Assembly: GCA_031271805.1 (NCBI GenBank)
Contig: JAISUX010000131.1
Span: 1 to 54,116, forward strand
Source: Tannerella sp.
GTDB lineage: Bacteria > Bacteroidota > Bacteroidia > Bacteroidales > Tannerellaceae
Direction: 5' to 3'
DNA: 54,116 nt
Every line of letters starts with the position of its first letter. Within the stretch, counting starts at the first letter, position 1. The translations under genes were made by a program, and so were the position numbers. The notes under the pieces are model-generated. The model was not told the DNA's origin and searched no databases. It saw nothing but the letters and a program-made list of their open reading frames with translations. Below are positions 26,448 through 35,818 of this stretch, piece after piece.

Positions 26448-27539
26448 ATGCTAACAAGAAGGATATCAAGTTTATTCGTATTTATATTGACAGTGATTTT
26501 TATGTCGTGCTCGGGTGGGAGAGGGTCTTCAGGTGAAGGCTCGGCTTCGGGTGTGGTTTTGTTGACGGTCAAGACGGATACCGTACGGGTATTCGGTGAA
26601 AAACAGCAAGTTACGTTTCCAGGAAAGATCAAGGCCGCGTCCGACATTAATCTGGCGTTCCGAGTCGCGGGGCCTATTGCTCGGATGGCAGTCAGCGAGG
26701 GCGCTTTCGTGCGCAAAGGACAAACACTTGCGGAGTTGGATTCAAGGGATTATCAGATACAGTTCGATGCTACCGAGGCCGAATACAAGCGTGTCAAGGC
26801 GGAGGCCGACAGGATTATTGAACTTTATGGTAATAACAGTGTCGCCGCAAACGATTACGACAAGGCTGTCTATGGTTTGAAGCAGATTACGGCGAAGTAT
26901 GAGGCGCATCGCAACGCGCTTGCGGATGTGCGGCTGACGGCGCCATTCGACGGATTTGTTCAGAAACGCTTTTTCGGAGTTGGCGAGACGGTAGGAGCGG
27001 GGACGCCGGTATTGTCGATGATTGACGCCGGCAGTCCGGAGGTCGAGATATTTATCCCCTCATCGGAATTTATCAAACGCGATAATTTCGAATCGTATTC
27101 GTGCACGGTAGGGATTTATCCCTATAGAGTGTTTTCGCTTGATTTAGTGGGAATTACGCAGAAAGCAAATTTGAATCAGTTATATGCGGTGCGGCTTAAG
27201 ATGCGTGCCTCCGAAAAACCGCTTCCGGTGCCGGGGATGGTCGCGTTCGCTACAATATACTATAAGCCGGAAGCGTCGGAATTGGTGCGGATCCCTTATT
27301 CCGCATTGTTCGCGTATGAATCGGCTTCGGCGGTATGGGTATTCAATCCTGAAACTCAAACAGTAACATTGCGAAAAATCAAACCGAGCGAAATTCAGAC
27401 TAACGGCACGGTAGTTGTATCAAGCGGCCTCGAAGCCGGGGAAATAGTTGTTACCGCTGGCGTCCATTCATTGAAAGACGGAGATAAAGTCAAAGTTCTT
27501 CCGCCCATATCACCGACAAACGCAGGAGGTTTGCTATGA
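26448..27539 (+). CDS. RND efflux periplasmic adaptor (membrane fusion protein), lipoprotein
   Basis: 363 residues with lipoprotein Cys21 (VIFMSC). The adaptor architecture reads in order. A lipoyl half follows FPGKIKAASDINLAFRVAG, then AVSEGAFVRKGQTLAELD. A short helical hairpin carries the conserved TEAEY-like ATEAEYKRVKAEADRI, then the second lipoyl half (RLTAPFDGFVQKRFFGVGE). The beta-barrel and membrane-proximal domains end with VVSSGLEAGEIVVTAGVHSL. It would bridge the inner-membrane pump and outer-membrane channel, both encoded by the next gene through a 4-bp ATGA overlap. Substrate specificity cannot be read; the neighbouring lipid operon does not obviously require it. Confidence 0.93.
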   Translation: MLTRRISSLFVFILTVIFMSCSGGRGSSGEGSASGVVLLTVKTDTVRVFGEKQQVTFPGKIKAASDINLAFRVAGPIARMAVSEGAFVRKGQTLAELDSRDYQIQFDATEAEYKRVKAEADRIIELYGNNSVAANDYDKAVYGLKQITAKYEAHRNALADVRLTAPFDGFVQKRFFGVGETVGAGTPVLSMIDAGSPEVEIFIPSSEFIKRDNFESYSCTVGIYPYRVFSLDLVGITQKANLNQLYAVRLKMRASEKPLPVPGMVAFATIYYKPEASELVRIPYSALFAYESASAVWVFNPETQTVTLRKIKPSEIQTNGTVVVSSGLEAGEIVVTAGVHSLKDGDKVKVLPPISPTNAGGLL

Positions 27540-30500
27540 ACAAACAATTGCAATCGGGTTCTATCGGAACATGGGCATTGGATAACGCCAAACTCGTTTA
27601 TTTCCTGATTTTTGCGCTTATTGTCGGCGGCGCGAAGTCATTCTATGACATGAGCAAACTCGAAGATCCGGAAATCAAGGTTAAACAGGCGCTTGTGGTC
27701 ACTACCTATCCCGGAGCGTCGGCGCATGAGGTAGAACTTGAAGTCACGGATGTCATAGAGAAAAATGTCCGCACGATGAAAGATGTCGAATACGTGCAGA
27801 GCCGTTCTATGAACGATGTTTCTATGCTTACGGTCAATCTCTCGACCTTGGTGAAGAATGAGGATGTCGAGCAGCATTGGGACATATTGCGGCGCAAGGT
27901 CGCCGATGTTGTCGGCAAACTGCCCGAAGGAGCCGGAACGCCTGTCGTGATCGACGATTTCGGCGACGTTTACGGTATGTTTTACGCATTGACGGCCGAT
28001 GGATATACTGAGCGTGAAATCAGCGATTATGCGGGACTTATCAAGCGTGAACTGCAAGCCATCGAAGGCGTTACGCGCGTCAATTTATACGGCGAGCAGC
28101 AGGAGTGTATCGAAATAGAGCTTTATGAAGACCGCATGGCCAACCTCGGCGTCATGCCTGTGGAGGCGCTGTCCACGCTCAGAGAGCAGAATAAGACCGT
28201 CTATTCGGGCTATTACGAGGTAGGCGACAACAGGTTGAGGGTTTCCGTAAGCGACCGTTACCGCAACGTCGATGACATCGGCAACCTGCTGATTCAGGGG
28301 CATGAGGATGACCAACTGCGCTTGCGCGACATCGCCATGATCCGTAAAACGATAGAAAAGCCTGTTCGTAATGCGATGCGCTATGACCGGCATCGCGCTG
28401 TCGGCATCGCTATAGCGGCGCTGCACGGCACGGATATCACCAAACTCGGCGTTCAGGTTGAGGCTCGCCTTGCCGAACTGCAACGCGACCGGCTGCCTGC
28501 CGGAATAGAATATCACAAGGTCTTTTTCCAGCCTGCACGCGTCAACGAGGCTATCGGCACTTTCATGCTCAACCTTGCCGAATCGCTTGCCATCGTGGTT
28601 TTCCTGCTTATGCTGACTATGGGCTTCCGTAGCGGCGTCATAATCGGAAGCAGCCTTGTTATTGTCGTAATAGGATCATTTTTAATACTTAACATGTTCG
28701 ACGGCACACTACAAAGAGTTTCTTTGGCGGCTTTTGTGCTCGCTATGGGAATGTTGGTGGATAACGCCATCGTTATTATTGACGGTATTTTGGTTGACTT
28801 GAAACTTGGAAAAGAGCGCCGCGAAGCGCTGACGGCTATCGGCAGGAAGACCGGACTGCCTTTATTGGCGGCCACCCTTATCGCAGTGCTAGCCTTCTTC
28901 CCGATTTTTCTTTCGCCCGACACGGCCGGGATTTACGTTCGCGATTTGTTTATCGTCCTTGCCGTCTCGCTACTTTTGAGCTGGGTGCTGGCGCTCACGC
29001 AGGTGCCTATCCAGGCAAATTTCATGCTGAAAATAAAACCGCAAGAGGATTCTTCCGATATTTTCAACAATAAATATTACCGCGCATTGCGGAAAACCTT
29101 GTGTTGGACGCTGAAACACAAAACGATAACCATCGCTTCCGCCGTTTTTTTGCTTGCCCTGAGCGTATGGGCTTACCGTTTCCTGCCGCAAGGATTCTTT
29201 CCGGATATGGACTATGACCAACTTTATATAGAATATAAATTGCCCGAAGGTACGAATAGCTCGAAAGTTTCGGCCGATTTGTCGGAGATTGAGGATTATC
29301 TTTTGGCAAGGAAAGAAATAACCCACGTCACGACTTCCATCGGCGGGACGCCTGCGAGGTATAATTTGGTGCGCAGCATTGCCGACCCCTCGCTTGCTTA
29401 CGGCGAGCTGATAGTTGATTTTGTGTCGCCTAAAGCATTGGTTACCAATATGAAGTATATCCAGGCCGACCTTTCTGCCGCTTATCCCGAAGCCTACGTG
29501 CGGCTGAAACGATATAATCTGATGTATAAGAAATATCCTATCGAATTGCAGTTTAACGGCCCTGACCCGGCAGTGCTGCGCGACCTGACGTCCCAAGCTA
29601 TGGAAATAATGAAGCGCAGTCCGGAGGTCTGCCTTGTCAATACCGATTGGGAACCTAAGACACCGACTTTGCTTGTCGATTACAATCAGCCGGTTGCGCG
29701 GACAATAGGTCTCACAAGGCAGGACGTCGGAATCTCATTGCTGACGGCGACGGGAGGTATTCCGGCAAGCTCTTTCCATGACGGTTCGCATAGCCAGACG
29801 ATCTATCTCAAATGCGTGGACAAAAACGGTCGTCCGGTCGAATCAATCGAAAACTCGCCTGTTTTCAGCATGATGCCGTCGTTAGACAAGTTTATGGATC
29901 GGCAGGTACTGCAAGGCATACTCTCAGGTGCGATTTCGGAGGAGGAAATCCTCGAATCGGCGCTTGGAACAGTGCCATTGAGCCAGGCGACGCAAGGCGT
30001 CAAGGTCGTTTGGGAAGACCCTGTGGTCGTGCGCTACAACGGTCAGCGAGCGATGCGAGCGCAAGGAAATCCGGCCTTTGGCGTCAGTACCGAGGAGGCG
30101 CGGCAGAGTATCGTTGATGAAATTGCGAAAATCCGCCTTCCCGAAGGCTATTCTTACCAATGGGAAGGCGAACATAGTGCAAGCAGCCAGGCAATGAAAT
30201 ACCTTTTTGCCAACCTGCCTCTTAGTATAATCCTGATGCTCACGATATTGATAATGCTCTTTAAAGACTATCGCAAGCCGCTTATCATTTTTTGCTGTAT
30301 TCCACTCATCATGATGGGCGTTATCATAGCTATGTTGCTGACAGGCAAGACATTCGGTTTTGTGGCGATAGTCGGCACACTCGGATTGATGGGTATGATG
30401 ATTAAGAACGGGATAGTGCTGATGGACGAAATGGCTACGCAGATTAATAGCGGCGTCGAACCGGTAAAAGCCTTGCTCGACAGCGCCTCCGCACGTTTCC

Positions 30501-32131
30501 GCCCGGTGATGATGGCCTCGCTGACTACTATTTTCGGTATGCTGCCGCTCGTGACCGACGACCTTTTCAGTTCCGGCTCCGTTGCAATCATGGGCGGCCT
30601 GCTTTTCGGCACACTGATTACATTGCTGATTGTGCCGGTGTTGTATGCTGTGTTTTTCGGTATAAAAATAACTTCGTATATGAATAAAAATGCGTCCGGA
30701 AAATCGAAAAAAATTCCGGCTCTTAGTGTGTTGTTATTATTAACGGCGGCCTCGTCGGTAGCGCAAGAAAAATATACGCTTGACGCTTGCCGCGAATTGG
30801 CGCTGAAAAATAATAAAGAGGTGGCGATAGCCGAACAGACAGAAGCGAAAACGCTATATGAATCGAAGTCGTATTTCGCGAATTTCTTCCCTAAGTTCAC
30901 TGCTTCGGGCGCCTACCTTTTGAGTAATTCGAGTTTCAAGAAATCAATCGAAAGCGCTTATCTGCCGACGTTTACGCCCGATCCTGCGACAGGGCAACTG
31001 ACGCCCAATGTCATGACAATGCCGGATGGCTCGCCGGTTGTCGGCGCCGACGGCAACCCTGTTTTCCGGCAGTACGCCTACTTCCCCGGCATGGATTTCA
31101 ATATCCGTATGAATGGCGCTTACTTTGCCGGTCTTCAGGCGGAGCAGCCTGTTTTTTTGGGCGGCAAAATCATTTCTGCCTATAAGATGTCGAAGATAGG
31201 CCGCGACATAGCAGGTCTGAACCGCAGCCTGACACGCGCCGAGGTCATCGTCAAGACCGACGAGGCGTTCTGGCTGCATGTCAAGGCGATGGAATCGAAA
31301 AAAGTTGCCGAGGCTTTCAAAAAAGTAATTGTCGAACTTATGCAGAACGTGGATGCGGCCGTCAAAGTCGGCATGAAGACCCGCAACGATTTGCTCAAGG
31401 TGCAAGTGCAAATGAACAAAGCCGACTTGCAAATCCAACAAGCCGAAAATGCTATCCGCCTGTCGCGGATGAATCTGTGCCAAATTATGGGTATGCCGCT
31501 GACTTCGGATATCCTTATTGACGCTCGGTTCGACAATGACGATACGACGGATCCTACAACTACGCTGCCGGCGTCAGCCTATTATACCGCGCGGCCGGAG
31601 TTTTCCATTCTCGATAAGCAAATCGAACTTAAGTCGCAGCAAGTCAGGTTGGTACGTAGCGATTTCCTGCCCAATGTCGGTATAGGCGCGAATTATGGCT
31701 ATCTTCATGCTATAGAATTTAACGGCTCGCCCTTGATTGATAAGGCTTCTTTTTCGGCTTTGCTGACTGTCAGTATCCCCGTTTTCCATTGGGGCGAAGG
31801 GCTAAACAAAATCCGCGCCGCTAAAGCCGAGAAGCAAATCATTGAGCTGCAGCGCGATGACTTGTCCGAAAAGATGGAACTCGAAATGCTGCGCGCCCGC
31901 GATAAACTCAGCGAATCGCAGCTCGAAGTGTCGCTTACCGCCCGCGCTCTTGAGCAGGCTGCCGAGAATATGCGCGAGAGCGGCAACCACTACAATGTCG
32001 GTCTCGAAACTCTCGCAGATTATCTCGAAGCCCAAACTCTCTGGCAGCAAGCCTCCCTCGAAGCCCTGACAGCCAAAATAAACCGCCGACTCAACGAGAC
32101 ATATTACCTCAAAGCCGTCGGCGGACTTTAA
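27536..32131 (+). CDS. RND efflux pump fused to a TolC-family outer-membrane factor
   Basis: 1531 residues. Residues 1-1048 are a complete AcrB/MdtB-like RND pump: TM1 after NAKLVYFLIFALIVGG, porter loops, a central helix bundle with FVLAMGMLVDNAIVIIDGIL (Asp of the proton relay), and the C-terminal bundle with GTLGLMGMMIKNGIVLMDEM. At residue 1049 (codon at 30680) a new Met opens a signal-peptide-like stretch (basic GKSKKIP, hydrophobic ALSVLLLLTAASS, then VAQ). A TolC/OMF domain follows to the end (YTLDACRELALKNNKEVAI, later VGLETLADYLEAQTLW). A pump and a TolC channel lie in different membranes, so cleavage at VAQ or internal initiation at 30680 is plausible. The reading frame is continuous. 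Confidence 0.92.
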   Translation: MNKQLQSGSIGTWALDNAKLVYFLIFALIVGGAKSFYDMSKLEDPEIKVKQALVVTTYPGASAHEVELEVTDVIEKNVRTMKDVEYVQSRSMNDVSMLTVNLSTLVKNEDVEQHWDILRRKVADVVGKLPEGAGTPVVIDDFGDVYGMFYALTADGYTEREISDYAGLIKRELQAIEGVTRVNLYGEQQECIEIELYEDRMANLGVMPVEALSTLREQNKTVYSGYYEVGDNRLRVSVSDRYRNVDDIGNLLIQGHEDDQLRLRDIAMIRKTIEKPVRNAMRYDRHRAVGIAIAALHGTDITKLGVQVEARLAELQRDRLPAGIEYHKVFFQPARVNEAIGTFMLNLAESLAIVVFLLMLTMGFRSGVIIGSSLVIVVIGSFLILNMFDGTLQRVSLAAFVLAMGMLVDNAIVIIDGILVDLKLGKERREALTAIGRKTGLPLLAATLIAVLAFFPIFLSPDTAGIYVRDLFIVLAVSLLLSWVLALTQVPIQANFMLKIKPQEDSSDIFNNKYYRALRKTLCWTLKHKTITIASAVFLLALSVWAYRFLPQGFFPDMDYDQLYIEYKLPEGTNSSKVSADLSEIEDYLLARKEITHVTTSIGGTPARYNLVRSIADPSLAYGELIVDFVSPKALVTNMKYIQADLSAAYPEAYVRLKRYNLMYKKYPIELQFNGPDPAVLRDLTSQAMEIMKRSPEVCLVNTDWEPKTPTLLVDYNQPVARTIGLTRQDVGISLLTATGGIPASSFHDGSHSQTIYLKCVDKNGRPVESIENSPVFSMMPSLDKFMDRQVLQGILSGAISEEEILESALGTVPLSQATQGVKVVWEDPVVVRYNGQRAMRAQGNPAFGVSTEEARQSIVDEIAKIRLPEGYSYQWEGEHSASSQAMKYLFANLPLSIILMLTILIMLFKDYRKPLIIFCCIPLIMMGVIIAMLLTGKTFGFVAIVGTLGLMGMMIKNGIVLMDEMATQINSGVEPVKALLDSASARFRPVMMASLTTIFGMLPLVTDDLFSSGSVAIMGGLLFGTLITLLIVPVLYAVFFGIKITSYMNKNASGKSKKIPALSVLLLLTAASSVAQEKYTLDACRELALKNNKEVAIAEQTEAKTLYESKSYFANFFPKFTASGAYLLSNSSFKKSIESAYLPTFTPDPATGQLTPNVMTMPDGSPVVGADGNPVFRQYAYFPGMDFNIRMNGAYFAGLQAEQPVFLGGKIISAYKMSKIGRDIAGLNRSLTRAEVIVKTDEAFWLHVKAMESKKVAEAFKKVIVELMQNVDAAVKVGMKTRNDLLKVQVQMNKADLQIQQAENAIRLSRMNLCQIMGMPLTSDILIDARFDNDDTTDPTTTLPASAYYTARPEFSILDKQIELKSQQVRLVRSDFLPNVGIGANYGYLHAIEFNGSPLIDKASFSALLTVSIPVFHWGEGLNKIRAAKAEKQIIELQRDDLSEKMELEMLRARDKLSESQLEVSLTARALEQAAENMRESGNHYNVGLETLADYLEAQTLWQQASLEALTAKINRRLNETYYLKAVGGL

Positions 32132-32273: not shown

Positions 32274-33146
32274 ATGAGAATGGAGGGGTTTATAATAAGT
32301 TGGTTATTTTGTCTTGTTTCGGTTCATGTATTCGGACAAGATGTTTGTTATTATCTTTTTGATGAGAAATTATGTTATGAGGTTTCCGCTGCACGTTTCC
32401 TGATGAAATCGGAAACGATGGATATACCTGACATTGAAGATGCATTACGCAATCCGATTTACGGTAATCTTAAAAATGTTTATGAGATGGGGGGTGGATT
32501 TTTCGTGATTGAAATGGATGGTACGAATAAAGAAGAGCTATGGAAGTTGCATCGTCAATTTGCTTCCCGAGAGGATGTAATCTTTACTTCACCGATTTTT
32601 GGCGATATGCCTCCATCAGCATATTCAAATGTCGTATGGGTAAGATTAAAGTCGCAGGACTATTATCCCATTTTTACTGAGTATGTTGATAGTGTTTACA
32701 ATATTATAGATATACAGGGTTATAAGCTAACGCTTCCTCATAATTCGGAAAAAGATGCTATGCAAATAGCTATTGAACTGTATGAAGAGAATGATTGGTG
32801 TATAAGTGCGGAGCCTAATTTTATCATTCTTTGTCCGTTTGAGTGGTGTCCATTTGAACCCGAACAGCCCGGAGGAAACATGAATGATGTTCAGGATGAG
32901 CGGAAAATTGTCCTTTACCCCAATCCCGCGAATGATGTTCTTTATGTGGATTTGGGAAACGAAACTGCCGGTTCTTATGACATCCGATTGTATAACAGTA
33001 CGGGTAAAATCCAATGCAGGACGAAAGCAAGGGAAGGGATTGTAGAATTAGATGTATCAAAATTCCCGAATGGCATCTATTTTATGCGTGTTTCGGATGA
33101 TATTTCTACCAAACCTTTTATTTCCAAAATTTTAGTGAAACATTAA
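32274..33146 (+). CDS. Subtilase-prodomain-like protein with T9SS sorting domain (no catalytic domain)
   Basis: 290 residues: signal peptide (1-22, ending HVFGQ), a region resembling the N-terminal prodomain of Bacteroidales S8 proteases (about 23-185), a short linker, and a type A T9SS C-terminal domain (211-290: LYPNPANDVLYVDL, YDIRLYNSTGK, FPNGIYFMRVS, ending SKILVKH). The prodomain match rests on order and motifs shared with the neighbouring protease: CYYLFDEKLCYEV, REDVIFTSPIF, VVWVRLKSQD, LPHNSEKDAMQIAIELYE and AEPNF. In the protease this last motif immediately precedes the catalytic domain, which is absent here. It probably reaches the cell surface by type IX secretion. It may be a stand-alone inhibitor or folding helper of the subtilase, or a deletion remnant. 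Confidence 0.75.
   Translation: MRMEGFIISWLFCLVSVHVFGQDVCYYLFDEKLCYEVSAARFLMKSETMDIPDIEDALRNPIYGNLKNVYEMGGGFFVIEMDGTNKEELWKLHRQFASREDVIFTSPIFGDMPPSAYSNVVWVRLKSQDYYPIFTEYVDSVYNIIDIQGYKLTLPHNSEKDAMQIAIELYEENDWCISAEPNFIILCPFEWCPFEPEQPGGNMNDVQDERKIVLYPNPANDVLYVDLGNETAGSYDIRLYNSTGKIQCRTKAREGIVELDVSKFPNGIYFMRVSDDISTKPFISKILVKH
32922..32999 (+). repeat. Near-identical sorting-domain repeat, copy 1
   Basis: A 78-base stretch coding the start of the T9SS domain differs from 35591-35668 at only 4 positions by direct comparison, while the flanking coding sequence has diverged strongly. This points to recent duplication or gene conversion. Confidence 0.85.
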
Positions 33147-33160
33147 AAAAGCAAAAAAAG

Positions 33161-34900
33161 ATGAACAGAATATATTTAATTTTAGTTTTGACTGTAGTAA
33201 TTTCAAATTTGTTTGCTCAGTCTGATTTTTTCTATTCAAAGAATGGAAAAGAAGAAACCTTTAAAATACGTAAGGATATTTTGATATTAAAAACAAAATC
33301 TTCAAATATTAAAGGAGAAATGTTACGGCAACATGTCAAATTAGAAACAGTGGAGTTTATCAGTCCGGATTTGATAAAGGCGAAAGTTGACCAAGATAAT
33401 TTTGATGTGAAAACTATTTCCGACATAGATGAAATTACCGATTGGTATTATATGTTAGAATATGAAAGAGATGGAGTATTACAGGCTTTGACTAACCGGA
33501 TTTTTCTTAGGCCAAAAAATGATGAATCAATTGAGAAGATAATTAAACAATGCGGATTGTCCGGTAAAGTTGAAAAACTTGAGGCGTTTTGGCCTGAGGC
33601 TCAGATTTACATGTTGACGTTGTCCTGCAAAATGAAAGACATTCTTCCTGTGTGTCGCAGAATATATGAAACCGGAATGGTAGATTTTGCTGATCCGAAT
33701 TTTTACAGAGAAGGTCTTCTTGGCAACACGTTATGGCCAGCCCAGTGGAACATGAAAAATACAGGACAGGGTAACGGAACTCCTGGAATAGATATAAATG
33801 TGGAACCCGCTTGGAGTATAACACAGGGAAGTAGCAATATAAAAGTTGCAATTGTTGACGAGGGAGTTGATTTAACTCATCCTGATCTTCAAACGAATCT
33901 ATTACCGGGATATGACGCCACAGGAGGAGGGTCTAATGGTGGCTATTCAGGTAATGATGCTCACGGCACCTCTTGTGCCGGAGTTATTGGAGCGATTAAT
34001 AACTCCTATGGAGTAGTAGGCGTCGCTCCTGGATGCAAGATGATTCCTATAAAAGCGTTTTCAAATGGATCTGGATATGATGATAGAATTAAGAACGGAC
34101 TTCGATATGCTTGGCAAACAGGTGGTGCAGACGTCATTAATAATTCATGGGGAGGAGGGTCTACTAACAGCGTTTATGATGAACTTATTGACTCCTGTGT
34201 TAATTATGGGAGAGGAGGGAAAGGATGTGTGTTAGTATTTTGTTCCCATAATGGTGGTGCGGCAGTGTGTTATCCTGCAAATTTACCTAATGTTATTGCG
34301 GTAGGGTCAGTTAATTGTGTCGGCCGGCGCGTTTCTGATTCTAATTACGGCGATGAGTTGGATGTGGTGGCGCCTGTTGGTGGAGGTATGGATAGCATTA
34401 ACAGTACAAAAGTCTATACAACTGATTTACAAGGTTCATTAGGGGAAAACAAAGCGAGCGGAACAGCCGGTGATTATCGTTCAGATTTTTGCGGAACTTC
34501 AGCCGCAAGTCCTCAAGTTGCCGGTATAGCCGCCCTTGTTTTATCGGCAAATCCCAATCTTACCGCTTCGGATGTACGTAATATTATATGTATGACAACA
34601 CAAAAACTTTACAACTATACTTTTGAAACGACCTCAGCGCATCCTAACGGTTCATGGAATAATGAGGTCGGTTACGGATTAGTTGATGCCGAAGCCGCAG
34701 TGCAGGCCGCACTGTATTGTTATGCCGGCCTGTCTAACCAAACATTGACATCAAATAAATTTGCTCGCAGTTGCAACAACACTTTCTCACTTCAAAACGT
34801 TACTGTGTCGAATAATTCCAAATTAACCGTCAGGTCAAATGAGACATCCATAGCAGATACATTTCGAGTATCAACCGGTTGTTCGTTTGAGATAAGGTGA
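33161..34900 (+). CDS. Secreted subtilisin-like serine protease (S8)
   Basis: 579 residues: signal peptide (1-20, SNLFAQ), prodomain (about 21-182, ending FADPNFY) and a catalytic domain (about 190-520). The triad is complete: Asp233 in AIVDEGVD, His268 in NDAHGTSCAG and Ser447 in FCGTSAASPQVAG. The oxyanion Asn is probably Asn364 in VFCSHNGG. The remaining 60 residues (NQTLTSNKFARSCNNTFSLQ and onward to TGCSFEIR) look like a short beta-strand repeat segment, with no recognisable T9SS domain, unlike both neighbours. It starts 14 bp after the preceding gene and is followed 30 bp later by a second prodomain/T9SS gene. Codon use is AT-rich compared with flanking operons. Export is certain from the signal peptide; final location is unclear. 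Confidence 0.93.
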   Translation: MNRIYLILVLTVVISNLFAQSDFFYSKNGKEETFKIRKDILILKTKSSNIKGEMLRQHVKLETVEFISPDLIKAKVDQDNFDVKTISDIDEITDWYYMLEYERDGVLQALTNRIFLRPKNDESIEKIIKQCGLSGKVEKLEAFWPEAQIYMLTLSCKMKDILPVCRRIYETGMVDFADPNFYREGLLGNTLWPAQWNMKNTGQGNGTPGIDINVEPAWSITQGSSNIKVAIVDEGVDLTHPDLQTNLLPGYDATGGGSNGGYSGNDAHGTSCAGVIGAINNSYGVVGVAPGCKMIPIKAFSNGSGYDDRIKNGLRYAWQTGGADVINNSWGGGSTNSVYDELIDSCVNYGRGGKGCVLVFCSHNGGAAVCYPANLPNVIAVGSVNCVGRRVSDSNYGDELDVVAPVGGGMDSINSTKVYTTDLQGSLGENKASGTAGDYRSDFCGTSAASPQVAGIAALVLSANPNLTASDVRNIICMTTQKLYNYTFETTSAHPNGSWNNEVGYGLVDAEAAVQAALYCYAGLSNQTLTSNKFARSCNNTFSLQNVTVSNNSKLTVRSNETSIADTFRVSTGCSFEIR

Positions 34901-34930
34901 TAAATTGTATATAATTAAATTTTAAAGAAA

Positions 34931-35818
34931 ATGAAGGAGCGTACAAGAATTAAAAAGTCGATTATGAAAAGGATATTTTTAAGTGGGTTGTTGTTATGCA
35001 TCGCGGCGGTTTATGTTGACGGGCAAGATGATATATGCTGGTATAATAAAAACGAAAAAATGTGCTTTGAGATGTCAGTAACAAAAATGATAATATGCTC
35101 GAATATACTTGACGAAACGGATATCAGCAACGCTTTACAGAACACTGTCGCCGGAAGCATTGAAAATATTGAAGAAGGTATTGTTGGTACATATTTAGTG
35201 ACGATGGCGAATACAAGTAAAGAAAACATGTTGGAATTACAACGTGAGTGGAATGCCAGAGAAGACGTCATTTATGCTACTCCGGTCTTTGGAATATATG
35301 GGGAGGCGTTAACGAATCGGTTGTATATTTGGTTAAAATCAAATAATGATTATCCTGTTTTGCAAGAAAAGGCGGAAATTTATCATTTGACTATAGAACA
35401 ATCTGGGGGGCTTGAATATCTTGCCACGCTTCCTCATAATTCGGACAAAAATGCTGCGGAAATATCATGTGAACTTTATGAAACGGGACTGTTTCAATAC
35501 GCATCACCCAGTATATATTATACCGATGCGTTCGGTGATAAAAATGGAAATGAACCTGTATCTTCGATACAAACCATATCTATTTATCCTAATCCCGTGA
35601 ATGATATTCTTTATGTGGATTTGGGAGACGAAACCGCCGGTTCTTATGACATCCGATTGTATAACAGTTTGAGTAATTTATGCCGTCAGGCAAAATCGGC
35701 AAACGAGAAAGTATTAGAGTTTAATGTTTCAAATCTTTCCGGCGGTATCTATTTTCTGATTATTTCCAATGGTGACGCCGCAAAATCCGAAACGCATAAA
35801 ATTATCGTAAAACATTGA
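34931..35818 (+). CDS. Second subtilase-prodomain-like protein with T9SS sorting domain
   Basis: 295 residues as listed. Met12 at 34964 gives a tidier signal peptide (MKRIFLSGLLLCIAAVYVDG) and may be the true start. The body (about 32-197) follows the same plan as 32274-33146: CWYNKNEKMCFEM, AREDVIYATPVF, NRLYIWLKSNND, LPHNSDKNAAEISCELYE and YASPSIY. The T9SS type A domain (215-295) starts with IYPNPVNDILYVDL and ends HKIIVKH. No protease catalytic domain is present. The bases just before both genes are also alike (TTTAAAGAAAA ahead of the ATG), which supports duplication of the whole unit. The function proposed for its partner, prodomain-type regulator or surface remnant, applies equally and is unproven. 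Confidence 0.75.
   Translation: MKERTRIKKSIMKRIFLSGLLLCIAAVYVDGQDDICWYNKNEKMCFEMSVTKMIICSNILDETDISNALQNTVAGSIENIEEGIVGTYLVTMANTSKENMLELQREWNAREDVIYATPVFGIYGEALTNRLYIWLKSNNDYPVLQEKAEIYHLTIEQSGGLEYLATLPHNSDKNAAEISCELYETGLFQYASPSIYYTDAFGDKNGNEPVSSIQTISIYPNPVNDILYVDLGDETAGSYDIRLYNSLSNLCRQAKSANEKVLEFNVSNLSGGIYFLIISNGDAAKSETHKIIVKH
35591..35668 (+). repeat. Near-identical sorting-domain repeat, copy 2
   Basis: Matches 32922-32999 at 74 of 78 bases. All four differences fall at positions that change little in the protein. The genes around the two copies are otherwise clearly diverged. Confidence 0.85.

Follow-up and report, generated by a model that had tools for sequence, protein, structure and literature searches.

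Two proteins encoded on either side of a subtilase gene in a Tannerella sp. genome resemble the prodomain of such a protease without its catalytic domain. They lie in a stretch of 54,116 nucleotides, referred to here as the window (contig JAISUX010000131.1 of assembly GCA_031271805.1, positions 1 to 54,116). Three intact plus-strand open reading frames (ORFs) follow one another in the order protein A, S8 protease (subtilase), and protein B, with gaps of 14 and 30 bases. We predict that A and B are stand-alone subtilase prodomains, sorted to the cell surface by the type IX secretion system (T9SS), that act in trans as protease inhibitors. We give this reading a probability of about one-half. 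The features on which it rests are as follows (aa, amino acids; HMM, hidden Markov model; A6 is a mixed profile of 21 rows that include A, B, and the window protease).

32274..33146, plus strand: protein A, 290 aa, with signal peptide, prodomain-only region, and T9SS type A domain (ORF; PF18962, E = 1.3e-14; S8-prodomain HMM, E = 3.9e-8, or 2.1e-7 with a stricter set)
32337..32846, plus strand: prodomain region of A (A6 profile, E = 8.4e-41, which is circular because A is one of the A6 rows; independent support comes from the HMMs free of stand-alone proteins)
32823..32843, plus strand: tail IILCPFE of A after A-E-P-N-F, in the register of a would-be S8 prodomain cut (by reference to the mirolase chain start)
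32913..33143, plus strand: T9SS type A C-terminal domain of A (PF18962 and TIGR04183)
33161..34900, plus strand: S8 protease (subtilase), 579 aa, with signal peptide (by eye) and no T9SS domain (PF00082, E = 8e-46; best PDB sequence match mirolase, 8ehe_A, E = 7.2e-48)
33224..33727, plus strand: protease prodomain, two beta-alpha-beta-beta-alpha-beta units at aa 30-101 and 107-183 (model; profile)
33704..33724, plus strand: protease prodomain tail YREGLLG, before the presumed junction with NTLWPAQW (by comparison with mirolase)
33833..34678, plus strand: S8 catalytic domain with Asp233, His268, Ser447, and Asn364 (domain search; alignment)
34718..34897, plus strand: protease C-terminal beta-rich stretch ending CSFEIR, without a family match (similar end in the 59-61% identical T. 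forsythia and G025 proteases)
34931..35818, plus strand: protein B, 295 aa, with signal peptide, prodomain-only region, and T9SS type A domain (ORF; PF18962, E = 9.2e-14; S8-prodomain HMM, E = 5.8e-22, or 5.3e-20 with the stricter set; structural model)
35030..35539, plus strand: prodomain region of B (A6 profile, of which B is a row; model)
35516..35536, plus strand: tail YYTDAFG of B after A-S-P-S-I, in ungapped register with YREGLLG of the protease (alignment)
35582..35815, plus strand: T9SS type A C-terminal domain of B (PF18962; model resembling the mirolase C-terminal domain, 8qb1)

The initial annotation had described A and B as a signal peptide, a prodomain, and a T9SS type A domain in intact frames from which the catalytic domain is missing, and this description held. 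The type A domains of both proteins score above the curated cutoffs (PF18962/TIGR04183), and a Pfam scan found no S8 catalytic domain in either. Their middle regions gave no meaningful Pfam or NCBIfam match. The signal peptides of A, B, and the protease were judged by eye. The window genome (G000; 3.07 Mb in 138 contigs, with one further S8 gene) encodes SprA, the T9SS translocon, which together with the type A domains marks A and B as predicted T9SS type A cargo. Their passenger is a lone protease prodomain and neither an enzyme nor an adhesin. The protease was also as annotated, with a prodomain, conserved triad residues, and no sorting domain, since neither PF18962 nor TIGR04183 matches it. 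Asp233, His268, Ser447, and Asn364 vary little or not at all across an alignment of 18 sequences; read from their motifs, the first three are the catalytic triad and Asn364 is the oxyanion asparagine. Promoter and terminator scans around the locus were uninformative.

By BLAST, B is 27% identical to the protease over 89 aa (E = 5e-4), the match of A to the protease is not significant (E = 2.4), and A and B are 39% identical to each other over their length. We then scored both against an HMM of 18 S8 prodomains from which the stand-alone proteins and a hybrid from genome G019 (see below) had been excluded. B reached 64.6 bits and A reached 19.6 bits, and the best composition shuffle reached 6.0 bits (300 shuffles, 270 reported). 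All 15 stand-alone or bridging rows tested outscored the shuffles. Removing the window, T. forsythia, and G025 proteases from the HMM changed little (B, E = 1.7e-21; A, E = 2.7e-8). Searches with B or its profile had brought in five of the 18 rows (G034, G042, G045, and two of G158), and a stricter 13-row HMM without them gave 58.4 bits for B, 17.3 bits for A, and 6.7 bits for the best shuffle. At the level of sequence profiles, these scores establish homology of A and B with the prodomains of mirolase-type S8 proteases.

The structure comparison proposed in the initial annotation came out in favor of a common fold. It covers the AlphaFold models of the protease and of B, with mean pLDDT (predicted local distance difference test) scores of 77 and 86 (86.4 for B, whose prodomain is mostly above 90). 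Both models have the same order of twelve prodomain elements, as two beta-alpha-beta-beta-alpha-beta units, although they are not fully independent because the alignment for B included S8 prodomains. The models show that B shares the predicted fold of an S8 prodomain. Foldseek matched the prodomain of B to tandem ferredoxin-like folds and its C-terminal end to the T9SS domains of mirolase and RemA, and mirolase ranked first for the protease. A subtilisin prodomain was absent among the 50 Foldseek matches listed for B, which also held T9SS domains and other beta-sandwich or unrelated folds. Curated prodomain families, including Pfam I9, matched none of 21 members at E<=0.1, and the S8 prodomains in that set were likewise unmatched. 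No PDB sequence covered the prodomain region (best E, 0.5).

A and B had first been aligned with the prodomain of the protease between them. Homology to S8 prodomains stood, but descent from that particular prodomain did not. In our trees A and B group with stand-alone proteins of other Tannerella-genus genomes and not with the adjacent protease. The prodomain of that protease instead joins T. forsythia. Origin of A and B as duplicates of the neighboring prodomain was rejected when A, B, and the protease group were forced together (approximately unbiased test, p-AU = 5.6e-5). A single origin of all prodomain-only proteins was rejected as well, with 26 stand-alone rows forced into one clade (p-AU = 1.5e-48; the group was defined after the first tree was seen, and several of its rows are long). 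Therefore, stand-alone prodomains have either several origins or several fusions in their history. In G019, a stand-alone gene is followed by an S8 protein whose own prodomain falls in the stand-alone clade (support, 97/98; 100/98 in a second tree). We rejected this S8 ORF as a clean bridge between the two forms: it lacks a signal peptide, and a tree holding the Tannerella stand-alone proteins together without it was not rejected (p-AU = 0.17).

A groups with a gene of G027 (92/96; 92/61 in the second tree), and therefore the tandem of A and B is probably older than the species split. Two cysteines spaced C-x8/9-C are found in all seven aligned Tannerella-genus stand-alone proteins but not in the fused G019 protease. 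This pair suggests a stabilized secreted form. We also considered simple deletion of a protease at this site. No full-length protease was seen there in the sister genomes read, and the ispG flank held no S8 or prodomain match among 226 ORFs in eight sister genomes; both are weak tests, since the flanks (DUF4886 and ispG) are not conserved.

Prodomain-only proteins, either T9SS sorted or lipoproteins, recur in Bacteroidota. The N-terminal region of B has a match at E<=0.01 in 13 of 100 relatives (the window genome among them), and in several of these the matching protein is a full S8 protease. Four further Tannerella-genus genomes have the architecture of A and B: G016 (two in tandem), G027 (two, one cut by a contig end), G019, and G013. 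The complete proteins are 40-51% identical to B. At E<=1e-4, genomes with an A6 match number 32 among the 393 surveyed from the order and 24 among the 395 from the phylum, with the window genome counted in both; most of the phylum-level matches supplied as loci are full proteases. We read neighborhoods among the best 30 loci of each survey. There, 13 intact and complete prodomain-only genes have a T9SS-like end: two each in the window, G016, G421, and G229 and one each in G027 (plus the cut gene), G019, G013, G111, and a yak-rumen genome (L125). Eight of these ends were scanned, and those of A, B, the yak protein, G421b (L178), and G111 lie above the curated cutoff, while those of G421a and both G229 proteins lie below it.

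Twelve more prodomain-only proteins are lipoproteins by eye (G264, G344, G319, G441, G233, G051, G013 with two prodomains in one chain, G002, G017, and G013 with META-like ends, G669, and G890). Of 17 genomes, only G344 lacked a SprA match, and it has the lipoprotein form. Set aside before these counts were truncated, frame-broken, contig-ended, or unclear prodomain ORFs in G362, G407, G202, G461, G367, G476, and G060, as was the cut first gene of G027. The unclear case is G367 (196 aa, no lipobox by eye, tail of 12 residues). The double-domain lipoprotein of G013 (L194:6232-7584) is two complete tandem prodomains and nothing else. Lipoproteins of G017 (L198:5651-6880) and G013 (L023:3169-4314) join a prodomain to an end that looks META-like by eye.

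What the proteins might do is suggested by the genes around related proteases. The best PDB sequence match of the window protease, mirolase of T. forsythia, was crystallized with its inhibitor potempin C (8ehe). The gene before T. forsythia mirolase encodes potempin C, identical to 8ehe_B. According to PMC7296668, inhibitory lipoproteins are encoded immediately before the KLIKK protease genes. A small gene, lipoprotein-like by eye, directly precedes the S8 gene of this group in T. forsythia, G025, G034, G042, G045, and G158, and in the window A occupies this place. The pairs are alike in that both are from the same genus, involve S8 proteases of the same broad family, and have a small secreted partner encoded directly upstream on the same strand. 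However, potempins are lipoproteins, whereas A and B carry T9SS domains and have the fold of a prodomain (modeled for B). A, although encoded directly upstream, has no lipobox by eye, and phmmer searches of A and B against PDB sequences listed no potempin at E<=1. By analogy, the best reading is that A and B would stand in place of potempin-type lipoproteins.

The window protease itself is not a mirolase ortholog. Proteases 60-61% identical to it are found in T. forsythia ATCC 43037 (L115 and L116), with further matches in Tannerella sp. (L117 and L132). It groups with the T. forsythia contig104/058 and G025 proteases (100/100), outside the mirolase clade, in which mirolase joins G030, G025m, and G034 (100/96). 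KLIKK proteases end in KLIKK, whereas the window protease ends in CSFEIR and so lacks the KLIKK C terminus as a T9SS end. The S8 proteases without a T9SS C-terminal domain (CTD) in the window and at L062, L063, L064, and L125:6001-7746 share a beta-rich end, ..FEV..G..FEIR/ELEAK, that has no family match and might be an unrecognized sorting or anchoring element.

Some of the small lipoprotein-like genes form a family without a Pfam match, with a start of GIRIENL... Its members precede the S8 gene in T. forsythia, G025, G034, and G045. In G016, one follows the stand-alone tandem; it is related to the protein before the T. forsythia protease (39% identity over 267 aa, E = 2.7e-51), is also akin to that of G025, and is followed by the start of another lipoprotein at the contig end. 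This family is a candidate inhibitor family of its own (L062:1256-2035, L063:6307-7188, L064:7689-9348, L020:11276-12142, L024:146-559, and L026:5329-5931). Elsewhere in the order, in other families, small lipoproteins that look like potempin C by eye are encoded ahead of prodomain or S8 genes (L188:2517-3011, L189:6617-7069, and L185:5602-6054). A neighboring gene in G013 may encode a trypsin-like protein, judging by a motif; Pfam finds nothing in that ORF.

A second parallel is with the propeptide-like inhibitors of MEROPS family I9, which includes POIA1 and yeast IB2 and has a ferredoxin-like fold. Like A and B, POIA1 (seen with subtilisin in 1v5i) is a subtilase prodomain without a catalytic domain. 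A and B share with I9 members the homology to an S8 propeptide and, in the model of B, the ferredoxin-like fold. They differ in having two tandem units, in the sorting domain (or lipid anchor, in related proteins), in being bacterial, and in matching neither Pfam I9 nor another prodomain model. If A and B inhibit proteases, their mode of action would be the same as that of the I9 inhibitors. One face of the prodomain would cover the active site of the protease, and the segment after P-N-F would occupy the cleft much as a substrate or cleavage product does, an arrangement found in subtilisin zymogens. A and B would then do what potempin-type lipoproteins do at sister loci, keeping a coexpressed protease from cutting the cell that produces it. 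The cognate target may be the neighboring protease, a related S8 protease, or both.

The ends of the prodomains are consistent with such a mechanism. The deposited chain of mature mirolase (8ehe_A) starts 7 residues after H-P-N-F, although the natural cut may differ. In the same register, the window protease reads A-D-P-N-F-YREGLLG before NTLW, B reads A-S-P-S-I-YYTDAFG, and A reads A-E-P-N-F-IILCPFE. Nine lipoproteins end with the prodomain (three others, the META-like proteins of G002, G017, and G013, have chain beyond it and are outside this count). Seven of the nine stop 5 to 9 residues past P-N-F or its equivalent: 5, 6, 6, 6, 7, 8, and 9 residues in G669, G319, G441, G890, G051, G264, and G344, respectively. 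This pattern emerged from the data; it was not a prior prediction. These tail lengths match what a product-like inhibitor would show.

Other observations weigh against inhibition of the neighboring protease by A and B. Lacking a T9SS domain, the protease may remain in the periplasm when A and B are exported, and the three may not meet on the cell surface. A and B do not derive from the prodomain of their neighbor, the prodomain of A has the lowest HMM score among the 15 rows tested, and two of the nine lipoprotein tails are longer (14 residues in G233 and 29 in the double-domain protein of G013). The initial annotation had suggested dedicated inhibitors or chaperones. Inhibition fits the sister loci, in which protease genes follow lipoprotein-like genes that in one case encode potempin C, but the gene neighborhoods speak against a strictly dedicated pair. 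By the S8 catalytic profile, an intact S8 gene lies beside a stand-alone gene in only 4 of the 22 loci read: the window, G019, the yak-rumen genome (prodomain-T9SS protein directly 3' of S8), and G669 (prodomain-only lipoprotein directly 5' of a full S8 gene). The window was the discovery case and the yak locus was found with a protease query, so neither is an independent count. The order A, S8, B, which had been suggested as a search target, was seen in no other locus read. A broken S8 gene adjoins the stand-alone gene in G111; it has no prodomain, lies directly after the intact prodomain-T9SS gene, and is followed by a META-like lipoprotein gene (L195:6921 to end). In the remaining 17 of 22 loci we saw neither an intact nor a broken S8 gene, with a contig end close by in G016, G027, and G013. 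G017 and G233 have no S8 match at all.

These orphan copies and genomes argue that the targets of some members, at least, are proteases not made by the cell itself, or that these members have another function. One such role would be for surface prodomains to block subtilases of competitors or of the host, with the neighboring protease not the main target. G017 and G233, each listed as 98% complete, carry prodomain lipoproteins with no S8 match at E<=1e-3. G264, G319, G344, G421, G441, G051, and G016 have S8 genes, yet no full-length protease with this prodomain was among their profile matches. A and B are also unlike the prodomain of their neighbor. Even so, a stand-alone gene does adjoin an S8 gene in the window, G019, the yak-rumen genome, and G669, and the absences are soft, since at most 8 first-look candidates were scored per genome and the mixed profile gave mirolase itself only 2.1e-6. 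We consider defense against foreign proteases an unlikely main role for A and B.

Subtilase prodomains also act as folding chaperones, and A and B might assist folding of the CTD-less protease by binding it in the periplasm, with their T9SS domains then carrying the complex through the outer membrane. The intact proteases that lie beside a prodomain-T9SS protein (window, G019, and yak) all lack a T9SS-like end. This is 3 of 13 CTD-less proteases compared with 0 of 14 complete CTD-bearing ones (ends judged by eye; three contig-cut proteases excluded), but the link is not significant (one-sided Fisher test, about 0.1). The protease carries its own prodomain, its relatives in T. forsythia and G025 have neither a CTD nor a prodomain-T9SS neighbor, and the role is impossible for the lipoprotein forms. 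We therefore rate an escort function as quite improbable. Least credible is that A and B are functionless relics of proteases that lost the catalytic domain by clean deletion: G034 has prodomain, S8 domain, and CTD in one protein, from which one deletion would yield A or B, a prodomain-T9SS gene lies beside a broken S8 gene in G111, and seven other prodomain ORFs are truncated, frame-broken, contig-cut, or unclear, but intact frames with signal peptide, prodomain, and T9SS domain persist in five Tannerella-genus genomes (those outside the window 40-51% identical to B), the cysteine pair is conserved, there were several separate origins, and the tandem probably predates a species split.

Elsewhere in the window, a single 1,531-aa ORF (27536-32131, plus strand) fuses a full AcrB-type RND pump (PF00873) to an outer membrane efflux protein (PF02321).

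Stand-alone propeptide inhibitors and protease-inhibitor gene pairs are already known. T9SS-sorted and lipoprotein two-unit prodomains, their repeated origin, and a domain without a Pfam model appear to be new. Searches of open-access literature showed no paper on stand-alone subtilase prodomains in Bacteroidota among the titles listed, which does not imply that they are absent from print. We tentatively suggest a broader possibility, namely, that Bacteroidota have repeatedly freed subtilase prodomains onto the cell surface, by T9SS sorting or with a lipid anchor, and so gained a class of inhibitors unrelated to potempins. Some of these might be retained although no matching protease is made by the same cell, and would then shield it from the surface subtilases of neighbors. 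If inhibition by A and B and their relatives is correct, the zymogen's own safety catch would have been turned several times into a stand-alone surface inhibitor. This would add a second inhibitor class beside the potempins in the genus of a periodontal pathogen and would give a name to a domain that Pfam does not model. Small purified proteins would then suffice for direct tests of protease-inhibitor competition between Bacteroidota.

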